DNA of 64,000 nt, taken from the NCBI RefSeq assembly GCF_003478035.1, contig NZ_QUEP01000009.1, positions 69,794 through 133,793 of the forward strand. Direction: 5' to 3'. Position numbers and translations under genes: made by a program. The stretch's first letter is position 1; every line of letters begins with the position of its first letter. This DNA is from Clostridium sp. OF03-18AA (GTDB lineage: Bacteria; Bacillota; Clostridia; Lachnospirales; Lachnospiraceae). The notes under the pieces are model-generated. The model was not told the DNA's origin and made no database searches. It saw only the letters and a program-made list of their open reading frames with translations. This document shows positions 9,435 to 53,799 of this stretch, one piece after another.

Positions 9435-9437
9435 GCA

Positions 9438-9488
9438 TAACTGTTCGGCAGGTCTGTGAACTAATTGTTCTGGTCTGCTGAACAATTA
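9438..9488. mobile_element. Mini derivative of the 133-bp palindromic element
   Basis: Inverted ends TAACTGTTCGGCAG (9438-9451) and CTGCTGAACAATTA (9475-9488) match the termini of the full-length copies at 11870 and 22038, but the internal hairpins are missing. AATAAG occurs on both flanks (9430-9435 and 9490-9495), a possible target duplication. It sits directly between MATE 2 and the LRR gene. Confidence 0.6.
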
Positions 9489-9507
9489 TAATAAGTGTAA
9501 CTGGAAT

Positions 9508-10488
9508 ATGGATGTTGAATTTGAATTTAAAGAGAAAAATGGGGGCGCTTGTGTGACAAAGCTTTTGGCACCAGGCGCCGTCTGCGTGGTACCGGAAAGT
9601 CTGGGCGGACTTCCGGTGACAGAGCTGGCAGACAAGGTATTTTCGGGGAGTACGGTGGAGAAAGTCTATCTACCGCGGACACTCACCCGGATCGGAAGAT
9701 ATGAATTTTATGGATGTGAGAAGCTTCAGGAGATCCATTTTTACGGGGCGCTCCGGGAAGTCGGCGGCGGCGTGTTTACGGGCTGCCGGAATATCAGGAG
9801 TCTGACTGTGCATATGGGGGTGGATGAAGAGTCGGCACTCAGGGATTTTGTGACGGAGATCAATGAGAGAGTCATAGTACATGTGTTTATACAGAGCGGA
9901 CAAAATCGAATGCAGGACGAGAGAGACACGGACTCTGCACGAACATCGCTGGCTTCAAGTACTTTTGAGGAAGAGAACGGGGAGATAGAGACTGCGCGTG
10001 TGATCTTCCCGGAATACTACGACGAGGCGGTGGAAAATACGCCCGCCAGGATCACGGTATCCAATATCCACGGTGCAGGGCAGAAGTATCGCTACTGTTT
10101 TGAGGGACGAAAATTCCGATTTGACAGGTATGATAAAATGTTTGTGTATGAAAAAGCAGAGGAATCGGTTCTCATGGCATCGAAGATCGCGGTGACCCGG
10201 CTGCAGTATCCGAAAGGACTGTGGGAGAGCGCGAAAAAGGAATATGAAAAGTTTCTTATGGAGAATCTTTATGAGGTACTTCTTGGAACTCTTGAGGACC
10301 CGGAGACCATAAAATGGATTGCGGGACAGTATTTAACACCGGAAAAGAATCCGCTGACGGTGGATAAGATGTCGGGGCTGATCACGGAGATCTCGAAAAA
10401 GCATCTGCCGGAGCTTTTGGGGATGTTTATGGAGATCCAGAGGAAGAAGTTTGGCGTAAAGAAGAAAAAGTTTGATTTTGATTTGTGA
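9508..10488 (+). CDS. BspA-type leucine-rich-repeat protein of the LRR-VWA-MoxR cluster
   Basis: A 326-residue cytoplasmic protein with no signal peptide or membrane segment. Residues 25-105 hold LRR_5/BspA-like repeats (LPVTELADKVFSGS, EKVYLPRTLTRIG, FYGCEKLQEIHFYG, FTGCRNIRSLTV). The remaining two thirds is unfamiliar, largely helical, and ends in a Lys-rich tail. BspA-type repeats usually mediate protein contacts. Only a weak ribosome site precedes ATG 9508, and the mini palindromic element lies 20 nt upstream, so the native leader may be altered. The stop is followed at once by the VWA gene's AGGAGG, suggesting joint translation. No catalytic function can be assigned. Confidence 0.8.
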   Translation: MDVEFEFKEKNGGACVTKLLAPGAVCVVPESLGGLPVTELADKVFSGSTVEKVYLPRTLTRIGRYEFYGCEKLQEIHFYGALREVGGGVFTGCRNIRSLTVHMGVDEESALRDFVTEINERVIVHVFIQSGQNRMQDERDTDSARTSLASSTFEEENGEIETARVIFPEYYDEAVENTPARITVSNIHGAGQKYRYCFEGRKFRFDRYDKMFVYEKAEESVLMASKIAVTRLQYPKGLWESAKKEYEKFLMENLYEVLLGTLEDPETIKWIAGQYLTPEKNPLTVDKMSGLITEISKKHLPELLGMFMEIQRKKFGVKKKKFDFDL

Positions 10489-10505
10489 GGAGGTCAGAAA
10501 TCGTC

Positions 10506-11870
10506 ATGAGAGAAGATGCGGCATGGTCGCCGATCCTGAGAGAGCAGGGCGCGCTGGAAGAACTGGCGGTGATCGGCGTTGAGATCATACGGAACGCGAG
10601 GAATGAGCTGTATCTTTCCATGCGGTTTCTCGACGTGGCCTTAAATGGTCTGTTCCCGGTGGCGGACAACAGCATCAAGGGAATCGGAACGGACGGAACC
10701 TTATTATCATTTGAGACAGGATACATCTGCGGCTGGTACCGGAGAAATCCTGTTTATGTAAACCGCATGATCCTGCACGAGACCTTCCACTGTCTTTTTG
10801 TCCACCCATGGTCGAGAAAAAAGCGGGCGGAGGAATACTGGAATCTGGCATGCGATATCGCTGTGGAGTCCTTGATCGACGGGATCCACAAGCCGTGCGT
10901 CCATCTGCCGATGTCCCCGGTGCGGGCGGAATTTTACGGACGTCTGAGGAAAAAGATCAAGGTACTGAACGCGGAGAGCATCTATCACACTATGCAGGAG
11001 ATGGAGCTTTCGGAGATCGAATATGAGCGGCTCTGCCGGGAATTCTGCCGGGACGATCATTCCAGATGGGAGAAAGAGGACGAGAAGAAATCTCCGAATC
11101 CCAACCGGAACCGAAAAAACGATTGGGATGACAAGCGGGAGAAGATGCAGGCGGAGATGGAGGCGTTTTCCAACGAGGCGGCGGATGACTCCAGGGAGCT
11201 GATGGATCAGCTGGCGGTGGAGAACCGGGAGCGGTACGATTACCGGAAATTTTTGCAGAAATTTTCGGTGCTGAAGGAGACAGTCCAGATCGATCCGGAT
11301 GCGTTCGACTATGTATTCTACAATTATGGCATGCAGTTATACGGAAATATGCCGTTGATCGAGCCCCTTGAGACGAAGGAAGTCCGGCGGATCGAGGATT
11401 TTGTGGTCGTTATCGACACTTCGATGTCATGTTCCGGGGAGCTGGTGAAGAAATTCCTGGAAGAGACCTACGGGGTGCTGGCCCAATCAGAGAGTTTCTT
11501 TAAGAAGGTCAATATCCATATTTTGCAGTGCGATGATAAAGTACGGCAGGATGTGAAGATCGAGAGCGAGGAAGACCTTCGGAATTACATGGACCACATG
11601 GAGCTTCACGGCATGGGTGGGACAGATTTCCGCCCGGCATTCCTGCATGTGGACCAGATGATCAAGGCGGGAAAATTCAGCAGGCTGCGGGGACTCCTCT
11701 ATTTTACGGATGGATATGGGACATTCCCGGTGAAAATGCCGCCCTACGACACGGCATTTGTGTTTATGCGGGACAATTACACCGACGCGGATGTTCCACC
11801 TTGGGCGATGAAGGTGATTCTGGACCCGGAGTCGATGGAGGACGTGGGGAAAATATTAGATGGAAAATAG
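10506..11870 (+). CDS. Metallopeptidase-like / VWA domain protein (DUF2201 type)
   Basis: A 454-residue soluble protein. The N-terminal part carries a zinc-peptidase-like HETFH at residues 91-95, followed by NLACDIAVESLIDG, as in the DUF2201 putative metallopeptidase domain. A charged linker (about 180-240) leads to a C-terminal von Willebrand A domain with MIDAS residues DTSMS at 304-308 and GGTDFRPAF further on. The start is ATG 10506, with AGGAGG 12 nt upstream; a GTG at 10485 overlapping the previous stop is a weaker alternative. VWA proteins of this kind work as adaptors for MoxR AAA+ ATPases, and one is encoded next. The stop codon's last base is the first base of the palindromic element. 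Confidence 0.88.
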   Translation: MREDAAWSPILREQGALEELAVIGVEIIRNARNELYLSMRFLDVALNGLFPVADNSIKGIGTDGTLLSFETGYICGWYRRNPVYVNRMILHETFHCLFVHPWSRKKRAEEYWNLACDIAVESLIDGIHKPCVHLPMSPVRAEFYGRLRKKIKVLNAESIYHTMQEMELSEIEYERLCREFCRDDHSRWEKEDEKKSPNPNRNRKNDWDDKREKMQAEMEAFSNEAADDSRELMDQLAVENRERYDYRKFLQKFSVLKETVQIDPDAFDYVFYNYGMQLYGNMPLIEPLETKEVRRIEDFVVVIDTSMSCSGELVKKFLEETYGVLAQSESFFKKVNIHILQCDDKVRQDVKIESEEDLRNYMDHMELHGMGGTDFRPAFLHVDQMIKAGKFSRLRGLLYFTDGYGTFPVKMPPYDTAFVFMRDNYTDADVPPWAMKVILDPESMEDVGKILDGK

Positions 11871-12002
11871 TAACTGTTCAGTAGGTCTGCGTATTTACTG
11901 CGCTGACTGTAAGAAAATTTAGAATGGAAGGCAAAAATCCTATCGGCATAGCCGATTTGGAATGGATTTTTGCGTGTAACTGTGGGGGTACTGAACAGTT
12001 AC
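11870..12002. mobile_element. 133-bp palindromic MITE-like element, copy A
   Basis: Perfect 14-bp terminal inverted repeats GTAACTGTTCAGTA (11870-11883) and TACTGAACAGTTAC (11989-12002). Inside are three hairpins: GTC-x-GCGTA.../TGCGC-x-GAC, GGCAAAAATCC/GGATTTTTGC, and nested in it ATCGGC-ATA-GCCGAT. The flanks GGAAAATA (11862-11869) and GGAAAGTA (12003-12010) form an 8-bp duplication with one mismatch. No coding capacity. It lies between the VWA and MoxR genes; removing it and one flank copy would restore an ordinary spacing of about 54 nt. Confidence 0.9.
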
Positions 12003-12065
12003 GGAAAGTAAAAGGTTTGACAGGCTGGTTCACGGACTGTAAAAATTATACCGGAGTAAAAAGAT

Positions 12066-13613
12066 ATGAACATCAAGCGTGCAAAACAGGAAATTAAAAA
12101 TACGATACAGGTGTATCTGACGAAGAACGCACACGGGGAATACGAGATCCCGTCCATGCGGCAGCGCCCGGTGCTGCTCATCGGTCCGCCAGGAATCGGA
12201 AAGACCCAGATCATGGAGCAGGTGGCGCGGGAGTGCGGGATCGGTCTCGTCTCCTACACGATCACACACCATACGAGACAGAGTGCCATCGGTCTCCCGT
12301 TTATCTCGGAGAAGACTTACAGTGGGAAGAATGTCCATGTGACGGAATATACCATGAGTGAGATCGTCGCGGCGATCTACAATAAGATCGAAGACACAGG
12401 ACTCTCCGAGGGACTTCTTTTCATCGATGAGATCAACTGCGTTTCCGAGACACTGGCCCCGGCCATGCTGCAGTTTTTGCAGTATAAGACTTTCGGAAAT
12501 CATAAGATCCCGGATGGCTGGATCATCGTGGCGGCAGGAAACCCGCCGGAATACAATAAATCCGTGCGGGAATTCGATATTGCGACCCTGGACCGCATCA
12601 AAAAGATTGATGTGGAGGCAGATTTTGAGGTCTGGAAGGAATACGCGAAACAGGCGGATATTCATCCGGCGATCCTGTCGTTCCTCACCGCAAAGCCGCA
12701 GTATTTTTACCAGGTGGAGACCACCGTGGACGGAAAAGTGTTCGCGACACCTCGTGGATGGGAAGACCTCTCCGGATTTTTGAAGGTCTGCGAGAAGGTG
12801 GGGCTTACCTGCGACCGGGAGGTTGTGGTACAGTATATCGAGCACCCGCGGATCGCGAAAGATTTTGCGAACTATCTGGAATTATATAAGAAGTATCAGG
12901 CGAGATACCAGATCGACGAGATCCTGGAAGGAAAGCGGGACGAGCACCTGATGGAACAGGCGGCGAAAGCGCCGTTTGATGAGAAGCTTTCGATCATCAG
13001 CCTGATTTTAGCGAAGCTCGATGTGGAGTTCAAGGCTTATGCGCAGAAAGAGGATTATCTGGAAGTGCTGTTTGGAGAGCTGAAAGCATTCAAGAGAAGC
13101 TTGGAAGGTAAAGCGGAGGCAGGAGAAACGATAGAGACAGTGCCGCAGACTCCGATCGCCATCTTTTCCCAGCAGATCGAGGCATTCACTGCAGTATCCG
13201 AGCAGAAACAGAAAGCCGGACTCCTCACGAGGGCGGAAAAGTATCGCTGTGCCGATATCACAGCGGCCATGAACCGGTATCTACAGACGGTGAAAGCAGA
13301 ACTGTTATCTGATGGCGGTGAGATATTCGATCGGTTCCGGGAGATGTTTGGCGAAGAACGGACAGAACTGGAAAATCTGTGTGCCCATGCCGGACAGGCG
13401 CTGGAGTACGCCTTTGATTTCATGGAAGGAACCTTCGGCAGCAGTCAGGAGATGGTGGTGTTTATCACGGAACTCAACTCCAGCGCCCCGGCAGTGCGGT
13501 TCTTACAGGAGAATGAGTGCGAACGGTATTATGAATACAATAAAAATCTATTGTTTGATGAAAAACGGGCAGATATTTTGAGCCGGTTGGACAGATTGGG
13601 AGCATTCTTTTAA
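12066..13613 (+). CDS. MoxR-type AAA+ ATPase
   Basis: A 515-residue AAA+ ATPase. Walker A GPPGIGKT spans residues 40-47, Walker B LLFIDEIN lies near 120, and the sensor-1 region VAAGNPPEYN follows, with an arginine-containing DIATLDRIKKI segment. The first 290 residues match MoxR/AAA_5 ATPases, which remodel or activate partner proteins together with VWA co-factors. The C-terminal 220 residues are helical and unfamiliar. CCGGAG lies 9 nt before ATG 12066. Its neighbour is a VWA/metallopeptidase-like gene, the usual partner arrangement, here with an extra LRR protein. Confidence 0.92.
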   Translation: MNIKRAKQEIKNTIQVYLTKNAHGEYEIPSMRQRPVLLIGPPGIGKTQIMEQVARECGIGLVSYTITHHTRQSAIGLPFISEKTYSGKNVHVTEYTMSEIVAAIYNKIEDTGLSEGLLFIDEINCVSETLAPAMLQFLQYKTFGNHKIPDGWIIVAAGNPPEYNKSVREFDIATLDRIKKIDVEADFEVWKEYAKQADIHPAILSFLTAKPQYFYQVETTVDGKVFATPRGWEDLSGFLKVCEKVGLTCDREVVVQYIEHPRIAKDFANYLELYKKYQARYQIDEILEGKRDEHLMEQAAKAPFDEKLSIISLILAKLDVEFKAYAQKEDYLEVLFGELKAFKRSLEGKAEAGETIETVPQTPIAIFSQQIEAFTAVSEQKQKAGLLTRAEKYRCADITAAMNRYLQTVKAELLSDGGEIFDRFREMFGEERTELENLCAHAGQALEYAFDFMEGTFGSSQEMVVFITELNSSAPAVRFLQENECERYYEYNKNLLFDEKRADILSRLDRLGAFF

Positions 13614-22037: not shown

Positions 22038-22170
22038 GTAACTGTTCAGTAGGTCTGCGCACTTGCTGCGCTGACCGTAAGAAAACATAGGCTGGAAGGC
22101 AAAAATCCCATCAGCGAAGCTGATCTGGAATGGATTTTTGCACGTAACTATGAAGGTACTGAATAGTTAC
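22038..22170. mobile_element. 133-bp palindromic MITE-like element, copy B
   Basis: Same length and orientation as copy A. Ends are GTAACTGTTCAGTA (22038-22051) and TACTGAATAGTTAC (22157-22170), one mismatch. Compared with copy A, the nested stem changes from ATCGGC/GCCGAT to ATCAGC/GCTGAT, and the first hairpin changes a T-G pair to C-G; both are compensatory. Flanks ATTTATCC (22030-22037) and ATTTATTC (22171-22178) are an 8-bp duplication with one mismatch. It separates the two dehydratase pairs. Confidence 0.9.
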
Positions 22171-34109: not shown

Positions 34110-34130
34110 GATTGTTGTTCATATTCAAAT

Positions 34131-34430
34131 GCGATGAACGGGACAGGACTTTCAATCGAAATCTTATTCAGAGAACTGCCGGATGGTGCGAGGCAGGTAA
34201 GAAGGGTGGAAGTTATCACCTGCAAGCAGCCGGGGTGAACAAAACGTTTTAGTAATCCCGGACGGAAACCTCACCGTTAAAAGGGGACCGATTCATCTGA
34301 AAGTACTGCAGATACTTGAGGAGGATGGGACTGAGAGGCCGGTTTTCCGGCAACAGAAGTGGTAACGCGGAGAATGTTAGATCCTTCGTCTTCTAAGGGA
34401 GCGATCCCTGTGGAGACGAGGGATTTTTTG
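34131..34430 (+). promoter_or_regulatory. T-box riboswitch controlling cstA
   Basis: A tRNA-sensing leader. Seen: the GATGAACGGGACAGGA start of stem I, the AGAGA bulge with the distal loop (CTGCC-GGATGGTGCGA-GGCAG), and the T-box sequence AGAAGTGGTAACGCGG (34355-34370) in the antiterminator. It ends with a terminator: ATCCTTCGTCTTC (34381-34393) pairs with GGAGACGAGGGAT, then six Ts. Uncharged tRNA should favour antitermination. The T-box TGGT implies a tRNA with A at the discriminator position. The specifier is not certain; GGAAGTTATCACC in the 3' strand could present ATC (Ile) or a neighbouring triplet. Confidence 0.88.
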
Positions 34431-39699: not shown

Positions 39700-39719
39700 A
39701 TCTCCTATAACAATTGAAG

Positions 39720-39942
39720 AGGCATCCGGTGCTGCTGCCGCCCTGAAGGGGGCGGACAGCAGGTAAAAGGGAAACAGGTGAAAGACCTGTGCGATCTCGT
39801 CACTGTGAGCAGGGAATACAAAGCCATGCGCGAACGCGCGGTCACTGAAAAAACGGAGCAGCCTGACAGGACTGTTTTGAAATATTTGGGAAGGCGGCTT
39901 TGTGTGATGATCTGTGAGTCAGGAAACCTGCCGGAATGCTGG
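39720..39942 (+). promoter_or_regulatory. Cobalamin (B12) riboswitch aptamer
   Basis: Conserved blocks occur in the right order: GGTGCTGCTGCC (P2), AAAAGGGAAACAGGTGAAA, GCGATCTCGTCACTGTGAGCAGGG, GGTCACTG, GGGAAGGCGG, and the B12-box-like GTGAGTCAGGAAACCTGCC (about 39913-39931). GCAT (39722-39725) and ATGC (39936-39939) can close P1. Cobalamin binding is expected to favour the downstream terminator and reduce transporter expression. Confidence 0.92.
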
Positions 39943-39990
39943 TACAGGAAGAAAAATTCCAGATCACGAGGCATTGATCGTACCGTTTAT

Positions 39991-40099: not shown

Positions 40100-40233
40100 G
40101 AAACTGTTCAGAACTTTCATGATTACGGGCAAAAAATGTATTTCAGATGGCTGAACCAATAGGACTTTTGCTTTAAAACCAATGGGGTTATTACAGTCGG
40201 CGCAGCAAGTGCGCAGGCCTGGTGAACAGTTGC
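40100..40233. mobile_element. 133-134-bp palindromic element, inverted divergent copy C
   Basis: Read on the minus strand, it runs from GCAACTGTTCACCA (40220-40233) through CTGCGCACTTGCTGCGC (17 nt identical to copy B), GGCAAAAG...TTTTTTGCC with a nested TTCAG/CTGAA stem, to the end TTCTGAACAGTTTC (40100-40113). The flanks are A-rich and give no clean duplication (AAAACAAT left; AAAACATT begins 3 nt beyond the right end). It occupies the leader between the riboswitch terminator and the first transporter gene. Confidence 0.8.
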
Positions 40234-40272
40234 AAAAAAACATTATAATCTTTACACAACATGGAGGACAAC

Positions 40273-42875: not shown

Positions 42876-43711
42876 ATAAATTAAAGGAACTCCACCTGTC
42901 AGGAAAAGCAAAGACCGGTCTGGTAATCTTATTATTGATCCTTTTGACCAGCGTACTCGCGCCGGTCCTTGCTCCCTATGATCCGCTGGTCTCGAACCTG
43001 TCGGAAGCACTTCAGAAACCGTCTGCCGCGCATCTTTTAGGCACGGATAATATCGGAAGAGATACGCTGAGCCGTGTTCTCTACGGCGGAAGACAGTCGA
43101 TCCTTCTCGCCCTGGTGGCGACCGTCCTCTCGATGCTGCTCGGTTTTGCACTGGGACTTTTCGCGGGATATTTCGGTGGCTGGATCGACGGGATCATCAC
43201 GACGATCTCCAGCATTTTCCAGGGACTTCCCGGCTTGACGCTGATGATCGCGGTGGCCGGACTTCTTGGACAGGGCGTGAAGAGCATGCTGATCGCGATC
43301 GTGATCAATTCCTGGGTCGGATTTTCCAGGATCGTCCGCGGTGAAGTCATGAAACTGAAACAGGAGAGCTTTATTAAAGGACTGAGAACCATCGGAGCCG
43401 GAGACCTCCGGATCCTGTTCCTGCATATTTCTCCGAATATTTTAGGAACTTTGAGCGTCCTTTTTGCCACCAGGATCGCCGGAAATGTGATCTCGGTGGC
43501 GTCCATGAGTTATCTTGGTCTGGGACTTCAGCCCCCGACACCGGACTGGGGCGTCATGATCAACGATGCGAGACAGTATTTCCGCCAGGAACCGCTGCTC
43601 GTCATCGCTCCGGGACTCTGTATTTTGCTTCTTTCCCTCAGCATCAACCTTCTGGCAGATGAACTGCGTGACCGGCTGGATGTGCGGAAAGATGTGATGA
43701 AGACGATGTGA
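42872..43711 (+). CDS. NikC-like ABC transporter permease
   Basis: A 279-residue permease that pairs with the previous one. It has the DppC/NikC features LAPYDPLVSNLSEAL, HLLGTDNIGRDTLSRVLYGGR, an EAA-type loop ESFIKGLRTIGAGDLRILFLHISPN and SMSYLGLGLQPPTPDWGVMINDA. It starts at the ATGA overlap. A half copy of the palindromic element lies directly after its stop, still inside the operon. Confidence 0.94.
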   Translation: MNKLKELHLSGKAKTGLVILLLILLTSVLAPVLAPYDPLVSNLSEALQKPSAAHLLGTDNIGRDTLSRVLYGGRQSILLALVATVLSMLLGFALGLFAGYFGGWIDGIITTISSIFQGLPGLTLMIAVAGLLGQGVKSMLIAIVINSWVGFSRIVRGEVMKLKQESFIKGLRTIGAGDLRILFLHISPNILGTLSVLFATRIAGNVISVASMSYLGLGLQPPTPDWGVMINDARQYFRQEPLLVIAPGLCILLLSLSINLLADELRDRLDVRKDVMKTM

Positions 43712-43732
43712 TGTCGGAAAGCATGCAAAAAA

Positions 43733-43802
43733 AGGCAAAATTTCCTCAGCATAGCTGAGCCGGAACAGATTTTTGCCTGTAACTGTGAAAAAGCGGAACA
43801 GC
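43733..43802 (+). mobile_element. Half copy of the palindromic element inside the transporter operon
   Basis: GGCAAAATTTCC, CTCAGC-ATA-GCTGAG, GATTTTTGCC and TGTAACTGTGAA match the 3' half of copies A and B in order and spacing. The 5' half is missing, and the right end decays to GCGGAACAG. It fills most of the 107-nt gap between the second permease and first ATPase genes. Confidence 0.65.
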
Positions 43803-43818
43803 CAGGAGAGAAGATCAG

Positions 43819-53503: not shown

Positions 53504-53740
53504 GGTCCGCACAGCCGGGGAGATAGCGGTGCCCTGTACCTGCAATCCGCTACAGCAGGGGTGATGTTCTGCCGCGGGTACTTCCTTGTGAAGCTGCCCC
53601 TGGTAAGCGGCGCTGACGTTTTGGTCTCGCGCAATGGGACTCTCTGAACCATGTCAGGGCAGGAATGCAGCAGCATTAAGGAGAACCTTCCATGTGCCGC
53701 GAGGGAGCCGGGACCGAGCTGGCTGCCAGGGTAACGTTTA
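53504..53740 (+). ncRNA. ffs: Signal recognition particle RNA, large bacterial type
   Basis: A scaffold RNA of the SRP that targets membrane proteins with Ffh. It is the Gram-positive long form with an Alu-like domain: CCGGGGAGATAGCGGTGCCC and CTGCAATCCGCTACAGCAGGGG at the 5' end, and the Ffh-binding helix 8 region ATGTCAGGGCAGGAATGC, AGCAGCATTAAGGAGAACC, CATGTGCCGCGAGGGAGCCGGG towards the 3' end. Ends are approximate; no T-run terminator is seen, so the 3' end is probably processed. Confidence 0.93.
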
Positions 53741-53799
53741 TGAGACGTATTCAAAGCAGAGCGTGCGGATAAAAAAGAAATCTTAAGAGGTGACAGTGA

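Follow-up and report, generated by a model that had tools for sequence, protein, structure and literature searches.

What is the 133-bp palindromic sequence that separates two genes of an operon in Clostridium sp. OF03-18AA, and how did it come to lie there? An earlier note, made from the letters of a stretch of 64,000 nucleotides (the whole of which is called here the window), had described a non-coding element with 14-bp inverted ends and an 8-bp duplication of its flanks, and had proposed that it was a non-autonomous transposon. We report here that the sequence belongs, as one copy among many, to a superfamily of folded, non-autonomous mobile repeats of the Lachnospiraceae. The copy number, the existence of sibling families and a covarying fold extend the initial description.

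The element and its surroundings

The features of the locus are as follows.

10485..11870, plus strand: upstream gene, VWA-like/DUF2201 (PF09967, PF13203)
11862..11869, no strand: left target-site duplication GGAAAATA, read from the flank; the duplication is family-wide
11870..12002, plus strand: full copy 1 of the 133-bp non-autonomous mobile element (covariance model R1, 149.3 bits, this copy being within the model's training set)
11870..11883, plus strand: left terminal inverted repeat GTAACTGTTCAGTA, near-invariant in alignment A1
11884..11908, plus strand: hairpin 1, from the fold and the alignments
11931..11973, plus strand: hairpin 2, with an outer stem (11931-11940/11964-11973) and an upper stem (11942-11947/11951-11956)
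11942..11956, minus strand: terminator-like stem-loop followed by AGGATTTTTG (consensus match only)
11976..11983, plus strand: internal copy GTAACTGT, which forms the left arm of hairpin 3, the right-end hairpin
11989..12002, plus strand: right terminal inverted repeat, its last eight bases (11995-12002) forming the right arm of hairpin 3
12003..12010, no strand: right target-site duplication GGAAAGTA, 7/8 identical to the left flank
12066..13613, plus strand: downstream gene, MoxR-like AAA+ ATPase (Pfam: AAA, AAA_5), the name MoxR being that of the earlier note

The terminal repeats at 11870-11883 and 11989-12002 are perfect over 14 bp, and the sequence that they bound, in plus orientation, has a predicted RNA fold of -48.5 kcal/mol (z = -4.57). 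The right end has a second possible partner beside the left end, namely the internal GTAACTGT at 11976-11983. The tip of hairpin 2 reads C(ATA)G in this copy and C(GNA)G in most others. No transposase gene is listed within the 133 bp, a length too small for one, and the stop codon of the VWA gene (TAG, 11868-11870) borrows the first base of the element. The palindromic, non-coding character and the position between the VWA-like and AAA+ genes are thus as first described, with a flank duplication that agrees at seven of eight positions.

No Rfam family matches the element in the window, and at a relaxed threshold all its matches stay far under the gathering scores. Elsewhere in the window, Rfam matches a bacterial large SRP RNA (53507-53768), a T-box leader (34125-34396) and a cobalamin riboswitch (39710-39949).

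Further copies and evidence of mobility

The window contains four other sequences of this kind.

22038..22170, plus strand: full copy 2, 133 bp, 85% identical, flanked by ATTTATCC and ATTTATTC (7/8)
40100..40233, minus strand: full copy 3, diverged, 134 bp, 71-75% identity (profile and covariance model)
43688..43805, plus strand: decayed copy in which hairpin 2 and the right-end region are still recognisable (E 8.9e-7)
9437..9489, plus strand: probable 53-bp short derivative with inverted ends, directly after a stop codon (weak profile match at 9438-9467, E 0.03)

Since these further copies exist, a chance origin of the element is excluded; sites resembling the terminal repeats (≤3 mismatches) number 13 in the window against 2.55 expected in shuffles. 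The flanks of copy 3, read in its own orientation (GTTTTTTT and ATTGTTTT), agree poorly. This copy sits between the cobalamin riboswitch and an ORF starting at 40261.

We then considered 95 distinct full copies. The 8-bp duplication is perfect in 58 of them, holds at 7/8 in 27 and at 6/8 or less in 10; the 85 copies at 7/8 or better compare with a mean of 1.5 and a maximum of 6 when the right flanks are shuffled. A de novo scan looked for inverted ends flanked by perfect 8-bp duplications in 1.44 Mb of partly overlapping loci that had been chosen for the element; it yielded 79 candidates, of which 74 have ends of the element's type and five do not. One base-clean empty site was obtained, as the earlier note had advised looking for: a single GTTTATGT in locus L095 corresponds to GTTTATGT-element-GTTTATGT in L066, the joined flanks being 89.7% alike over 292 bp. 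Two other candidate pairs, L035/L124 (87%) and L078/L019 (69%), were rejected as not base-clean. Insertions prefer AT-rich targets starting with GA, and only 4 of the 95 copies lie within a long ORF.

Among 68 VWA-MoxR junctions from other genomes, some of them from the same genome and not all required to be orthologous, none carries the element according to the family profile, so that its presence here is lineage-specific. We infer that the window copy was inserted when the VWA-MoxR gene pair already existed. One could alternatively assume a fixed, non-mobile regulatory element of this operon, and the intergenic location and strong fold would suit such a role; given the 68 junctions devoid of it and the further copies, with their duplications, in the window and in other genomes, we attach practically no credence to this idea. 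Altogether, the element is short, lacks a transposase gene, has terminal inverted repeats and a target duplication, and occurs as dispersed copies with an empty site: we class it as a MITE. It is mobile and has been amplified in many species. The proposed non-autonomous transposon with an 8-bp target duplication is therefore upheld, and neither conservation of the element at this locus nor a lack of further duplicated copies, which would have spoken against it, was found.

Internal-deletion forms of 29-88 bp are recurrent and keep both ends, or end fragments, together with the duplication; the 29-bp form (L001) was identified by eye from its sequence. Longer forms of 158-159 bp also occur (L009, L021, L079, L091, L114 and others), with about 26 extra bp, GGGTCTGCCCCAGCGAAGCGAGGG or similar, in hairpin 1.

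Distribution across Lachnospiraceae

Searching one genome per GTDB species with the 20-base pattern AACTGTTCAGNAGGYCTGCG gave at least 120 stretches. Among the 120 matches listed, 118 belong to Lachnospiraceae or other Clostridia, one to an "uncultured bacterium" and one to a Pseudonocardia; in the latter no right end follows within 200 bp. With a covariance model derived from alignment A1 (72 copies), a match (E ≤ 1e-5) was obtained in 72 of the 397 species sampled from the Lachnospiraceae, the family of Clostridium sp. chh4-2; the filters of this survey were strict and may miss weak matches, and since eight candidates were scored per genome, the copy numbers per genome are lower bounds. The element was matched neither in the viral contigs nor in the plasmids that were searched with it. 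It is present on two contigs from human faeces that are filed as "Bacteriophage sp." (MT837311.1 and MT836459.1; L264:2681-2813 and L265:4235-4367), and a third contig so filed, MT839789.1, has a 92% match; these contigs are possibly chromosomal DNA.

Clostridium fessum is particularly rich in copies, with 70 exact 12-bp ends against 2 for a control pattern. Twenty further copies in this species share 95-100% identity with a single copy over 131-137 bp, a pattern suggestive of a recent burst. It also harbors a second, sequence-divergent 133-bp family (GTTACTGTTCACGGG...), found at L188:1093-1225 and at 17 further places that are 91-95% alike. Perfect duplications flank 13 of 23 distinct rows of this second family, and two more are at 7/8, the rows including partial ones or ones from another genome. 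A third type, GTAACAGTTCAG..., occurs in genome G461. Among 35 family representatives, 30 of which are the best match of a single genome in the covariance survey, the duplication reaches at least 7/8 in 25 and less in 10, with boundary shifts allowed that can inflate the matches.

A fold that covaries

Alignment A1, which was not fitted to structure, allowed us to follow each helix. The right-end hairpin, formed by the internal GTAACTGT and the terminal ACAGTTAC, shows pairing in 97.6% of cells and 35 two-sided changes against 6.1 in shuffles that ignore relatedness, whereas the helix joining the left and right ends displays none. The right end thus pairs with the internal copy and not with the left end. 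Consistent with this, the left end mostly stays GTAACTGT while the internal and right copies covary to the GTATCTGT, GTAATTGT or GTAACTAT types. For the outer stem of hairpin 2 the paired fraction is 89.7% of cells, a value lowered in part by rows out of register. Hairpin 1 hardly varies within A1 (no two-sided change) and changes on both sides in 7 of 9 pairs across families. Over the sibling families as a whole, 28 of 33 pairs show a two-sided change, with 177 such cells against 30.5 shuffled, in an alignment that was fitted to the covariance model and hence leans towards the fold, and with shuffles that again ignore relatedness.

The tip of hairpin 2 behaves differently from its stem. Of the 75 copies with a tip (at least four pairs), 63 read C(GNA)G there, the other 20 of the 95 giving none. 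The closing C-G pair never changes on both sides and is C-G in 65 of 72 copies, whereas the pair next to it swaps between C-G (37), G-C (23) and A-U (7). Loop positions 25-28 combine as T-A in 43 of 72 copies, C-G in 25 and T-G in 4, and never as C-A.

By gene context, the 95 copies divide into 52 between co-directional genes, 20 between divergent and 3 between convergent ones, and 20 with a missing neighbour. The 52 co-directional copies are in plus orientation in 40 cases and minus in 12 (two-sided binomial p = 1.3e-4, with a simple ORF caller), under a test that assumes independent insertions while many copies come from few genomes. A possible reason for this bias is that the minus strand carries the terminator-like stem-loop with AGGATTTTTG after it.

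The covariation and the fixed tip point to a constraint on single-stranded folding. On this basis, one may wonder whether the fold of this mobile element is also selected as a structured RNA or single-stranded DNA, either because it spreads in a SINE-like manner and acts on host mRNA or because transposition requires it, both being compatible with a MITE. Helices that covary while the left end stays fixed, the missing C-A combination, the conserved tip with its unswapped closing pair and the orientation bias all speak for such a selection, which we regard as a serious but tentative possibility; on the other hand, no Rfam family matches, the 29-88 bp derivatives persist with most of the fold lost, and templated repair of palindromes could yield a similar covariation. 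According to this last idea, covariation would be a mutational by-product, imperfect palindrome arms being corrected by template switching with no selection on the fold. Such correction is expected where the arms of a palindrome are short and near each other, as they are here, and the frequent internal deletions fit it as well. It would hardly leave the C(GNA)G tip and its closing pair fixed beside a freely swapping pair, nor a fold retained in sibling families despite much sequence change, and we judge it rather unlikely. Returning to a selected fold, we cautiously advance, as an idea still open to doubt, that the fixed tip and a right-end hairpin evolving apart from the left end mark a functional nucleic acid; the element could then have radiated across the Lachnospiraceae as a passenger of ISBst12-type IS66 transposases, SINE-like and dependent on its structure, each species amplifying its own version.

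Candidate mobiliser

Duplications of 8 bp are a trait of the IS66, IS256, ISL3 and IS1595 families, the very families that the earlier note had listed. IS1595 (PF12762) was found in none of 16 genomes. IS256 (PF00872, 6 of 16 genomes) and ISL3 (PF01610 over the cut-off, 3 of 12 genomes) are both absent from the copy-rich C. fessum, and the ends scanned at the six IS256 loci did not match the element. IS66, detected through PF03050 in 5 of 16 genomes, gives the best fit through its single-ORF, ISBst12-type group. Against this assignment, C. fessum, despite its near-identical copies, has no PF03050 match at E ≤ 1e-3 and only a relic of an IS66 TnpB.

The ends of ISBst12-type elements match GTAACTGTTCAGTA at 9-12 of 14 positions, the corresponding figure for eight TnpB-bearing IS66 elements of the family being 7-10 of 14; the two ranges overlap, one TnpB-bearing element (L299) reaching 10/14. 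ISDge4, a Deinococcus element of the ISBst12 group of IS66, has ends GTGACTACTCAGCA and GTAACTGCTCAGCA and an 8-bp repeat (PMC12898284). ISGka4 has ends GTAACTATTCAGCC/GTATCTATTCAGCC with the 8-bp repeat AACTCGTC twice, and elements of D. radiodurans, Nostoc and Planococcus possess both ends with matching 8-bp repeats. At locus L172, genome G018, which also carries full copies of the element (L015, L096, L110), contains a truncated IS66-type transposase gene (PF03050, E 1.2e-16) with the right end GTTACTGTTCAGTG. A 62-67% relative, with the right end GTTACTGTTCAGAG, is found on L366 (MT837605.1), a human faecal contig filed as phage; an internal GTTAC in this right end was not above background. 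The transposase family comprises 3038 proteins at E ≤ 1e-20, many of the 120 listed being 557-559 aa long, and gut and plasmid proteins share 24-33% identity. We provisionally assign the gut proteins, ISGka4 and the plasmid elements to the ISBst12 group on their mutual similarity, single-gene layout and ends rather than on a tree or on ISfinder. None of the viral contigs searched for the transposase was confirmed.

Among the loci examined, no complete Lachnospiraceae ISBst12-type partner with both ends was recovered, and no interior clearly shared with ISBst12-type elements was seen by eye, the gut relatives being represented by right ends. Several candidate partners were discarded. Longer elements (400-4500 bp) bearing the element's ends had no duplication (≤2 mismatches) at the loci examined; two ends that face each other over 2.1 kb in C. 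fessum likewise had none and enclose, by eye, apparent transporter and epimerase genes; the GTAAGTGTTCAG site near the IS66 of G035 was a coincidence; and the PF03050/IS66 loci scanned gave no matching ends except the TIR-like site of L172.

Could another transposase making 8-bp duplications, that is, a TnpB-bearing IS66, an IS256, an ISL3 or an IS1595, move the element? The eight TnpB-bearing elements have 8-bp duplications and mostly GTAA tips, and L299 comes within the range of the ISBst12 type. The tips of these eight are nevertheless followed by NCG... (ends GTANNCG...). In genome G122, three IS66 copies (L358, L359, L360), 99.3-99.6% identical on one large contig and with perfect 8-bp duplications in two, the third being unresolved by the scan, have ends GTAAACGTCAAACC that differ from GTAACTATTCAGTA, the ends of the element in the same genome. 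Together with the distribution of IS1595, IS256 and ISL3 given above, this makes such a mover improbable. We therefore favor, with good though not complete confidence, a non-coding MITE moved in trans by a DDE transposase, most likely of the single-ORF, ISBst12-type IS66 group, to whose ends its own are similar in sequence.

In this model, an ISBst12-type transposase would recognise GTAAC(T/A)GTTCAG-type ends in trans, and a complete Lachnospiraceae partner would be predicted to end in GTWACTGTTCAG. The enzyme would make an 8-bp staggered cut at the target, and an 8-bp repeat would flank each insertion for that reason. Once transcribed, the element may form hairpins 1-3, and its plus strand would probably be better tolerated in transcripts than the minus strand with its terminator-like hairpin.

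The Lachnospiraceae are major gut bacteria. A repeat present in 72 of 397 sampled species, with 52 of 95 copies between co-directional genes, may account for unannotated operon hairpins and for altered gene spacing among related strains. As a natural system, it lends itself to the question of whether usefulness is what maintains a fold in non-autonomous bacterial transposons, and it draws attention to the little-studied single-ORF IS66 group as their likely mover.

Comparison with known repeats

A literature search that included literal strings and covered little of the subscription literature returned no published description of this repeat. The closest parallel in its ends is the ISBst12 group (ISDge4, and probably ISGka4 and relatives), which shares the GTAAC(T)..TCAG tips and the 8-bp duplications (PMC12898284); its members measure 1.5-2.7 kb and have a transposase gene, whereas our element has 133 bp, is non-coding and folds into three hairpins.

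A parallel can also be drawn with ERIC, YPAL and Correia/NEMIS, folding intergenic repeats of about 100-170 bp that exist in many copies (PMC10969869, PMC2267715). According to the same sources, Correia transcripts are cleaved by RNase III at the inverted repeats, and ERIC alters mRNA decay (PMC10969869, PMC2267715). Compared by description, these repeats belong to other taxa, and our element differs by its variable 8-bp duplications and three hairpins.

The bcr1 repeat of Bacillus cereus, likewise from a Firmicute, belongs to the class of 100-400 bp, is present in many copies and shows traits of mobility (PMC6542083); a conserved fold has been predicted for it (PMC2267715). As described in PMC6542083, the mobility of bcr is tied to a TTTAT motif, and bcr repeats are reported from the B. 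cereus group only. No such target motif was found here, the 58 perfect duplications being variable and AT-rich with a GA start.

REP/REPIN sequences with their RAYT transposases are, like our element, palindromic and intergenic, and our element decays to palindromes of 29-61 bp; RAYT mobilisation is not known to produce 8-bp duplications. REPs measure 20-40 bp (PMC3733652), against 133 bp for the element described here.
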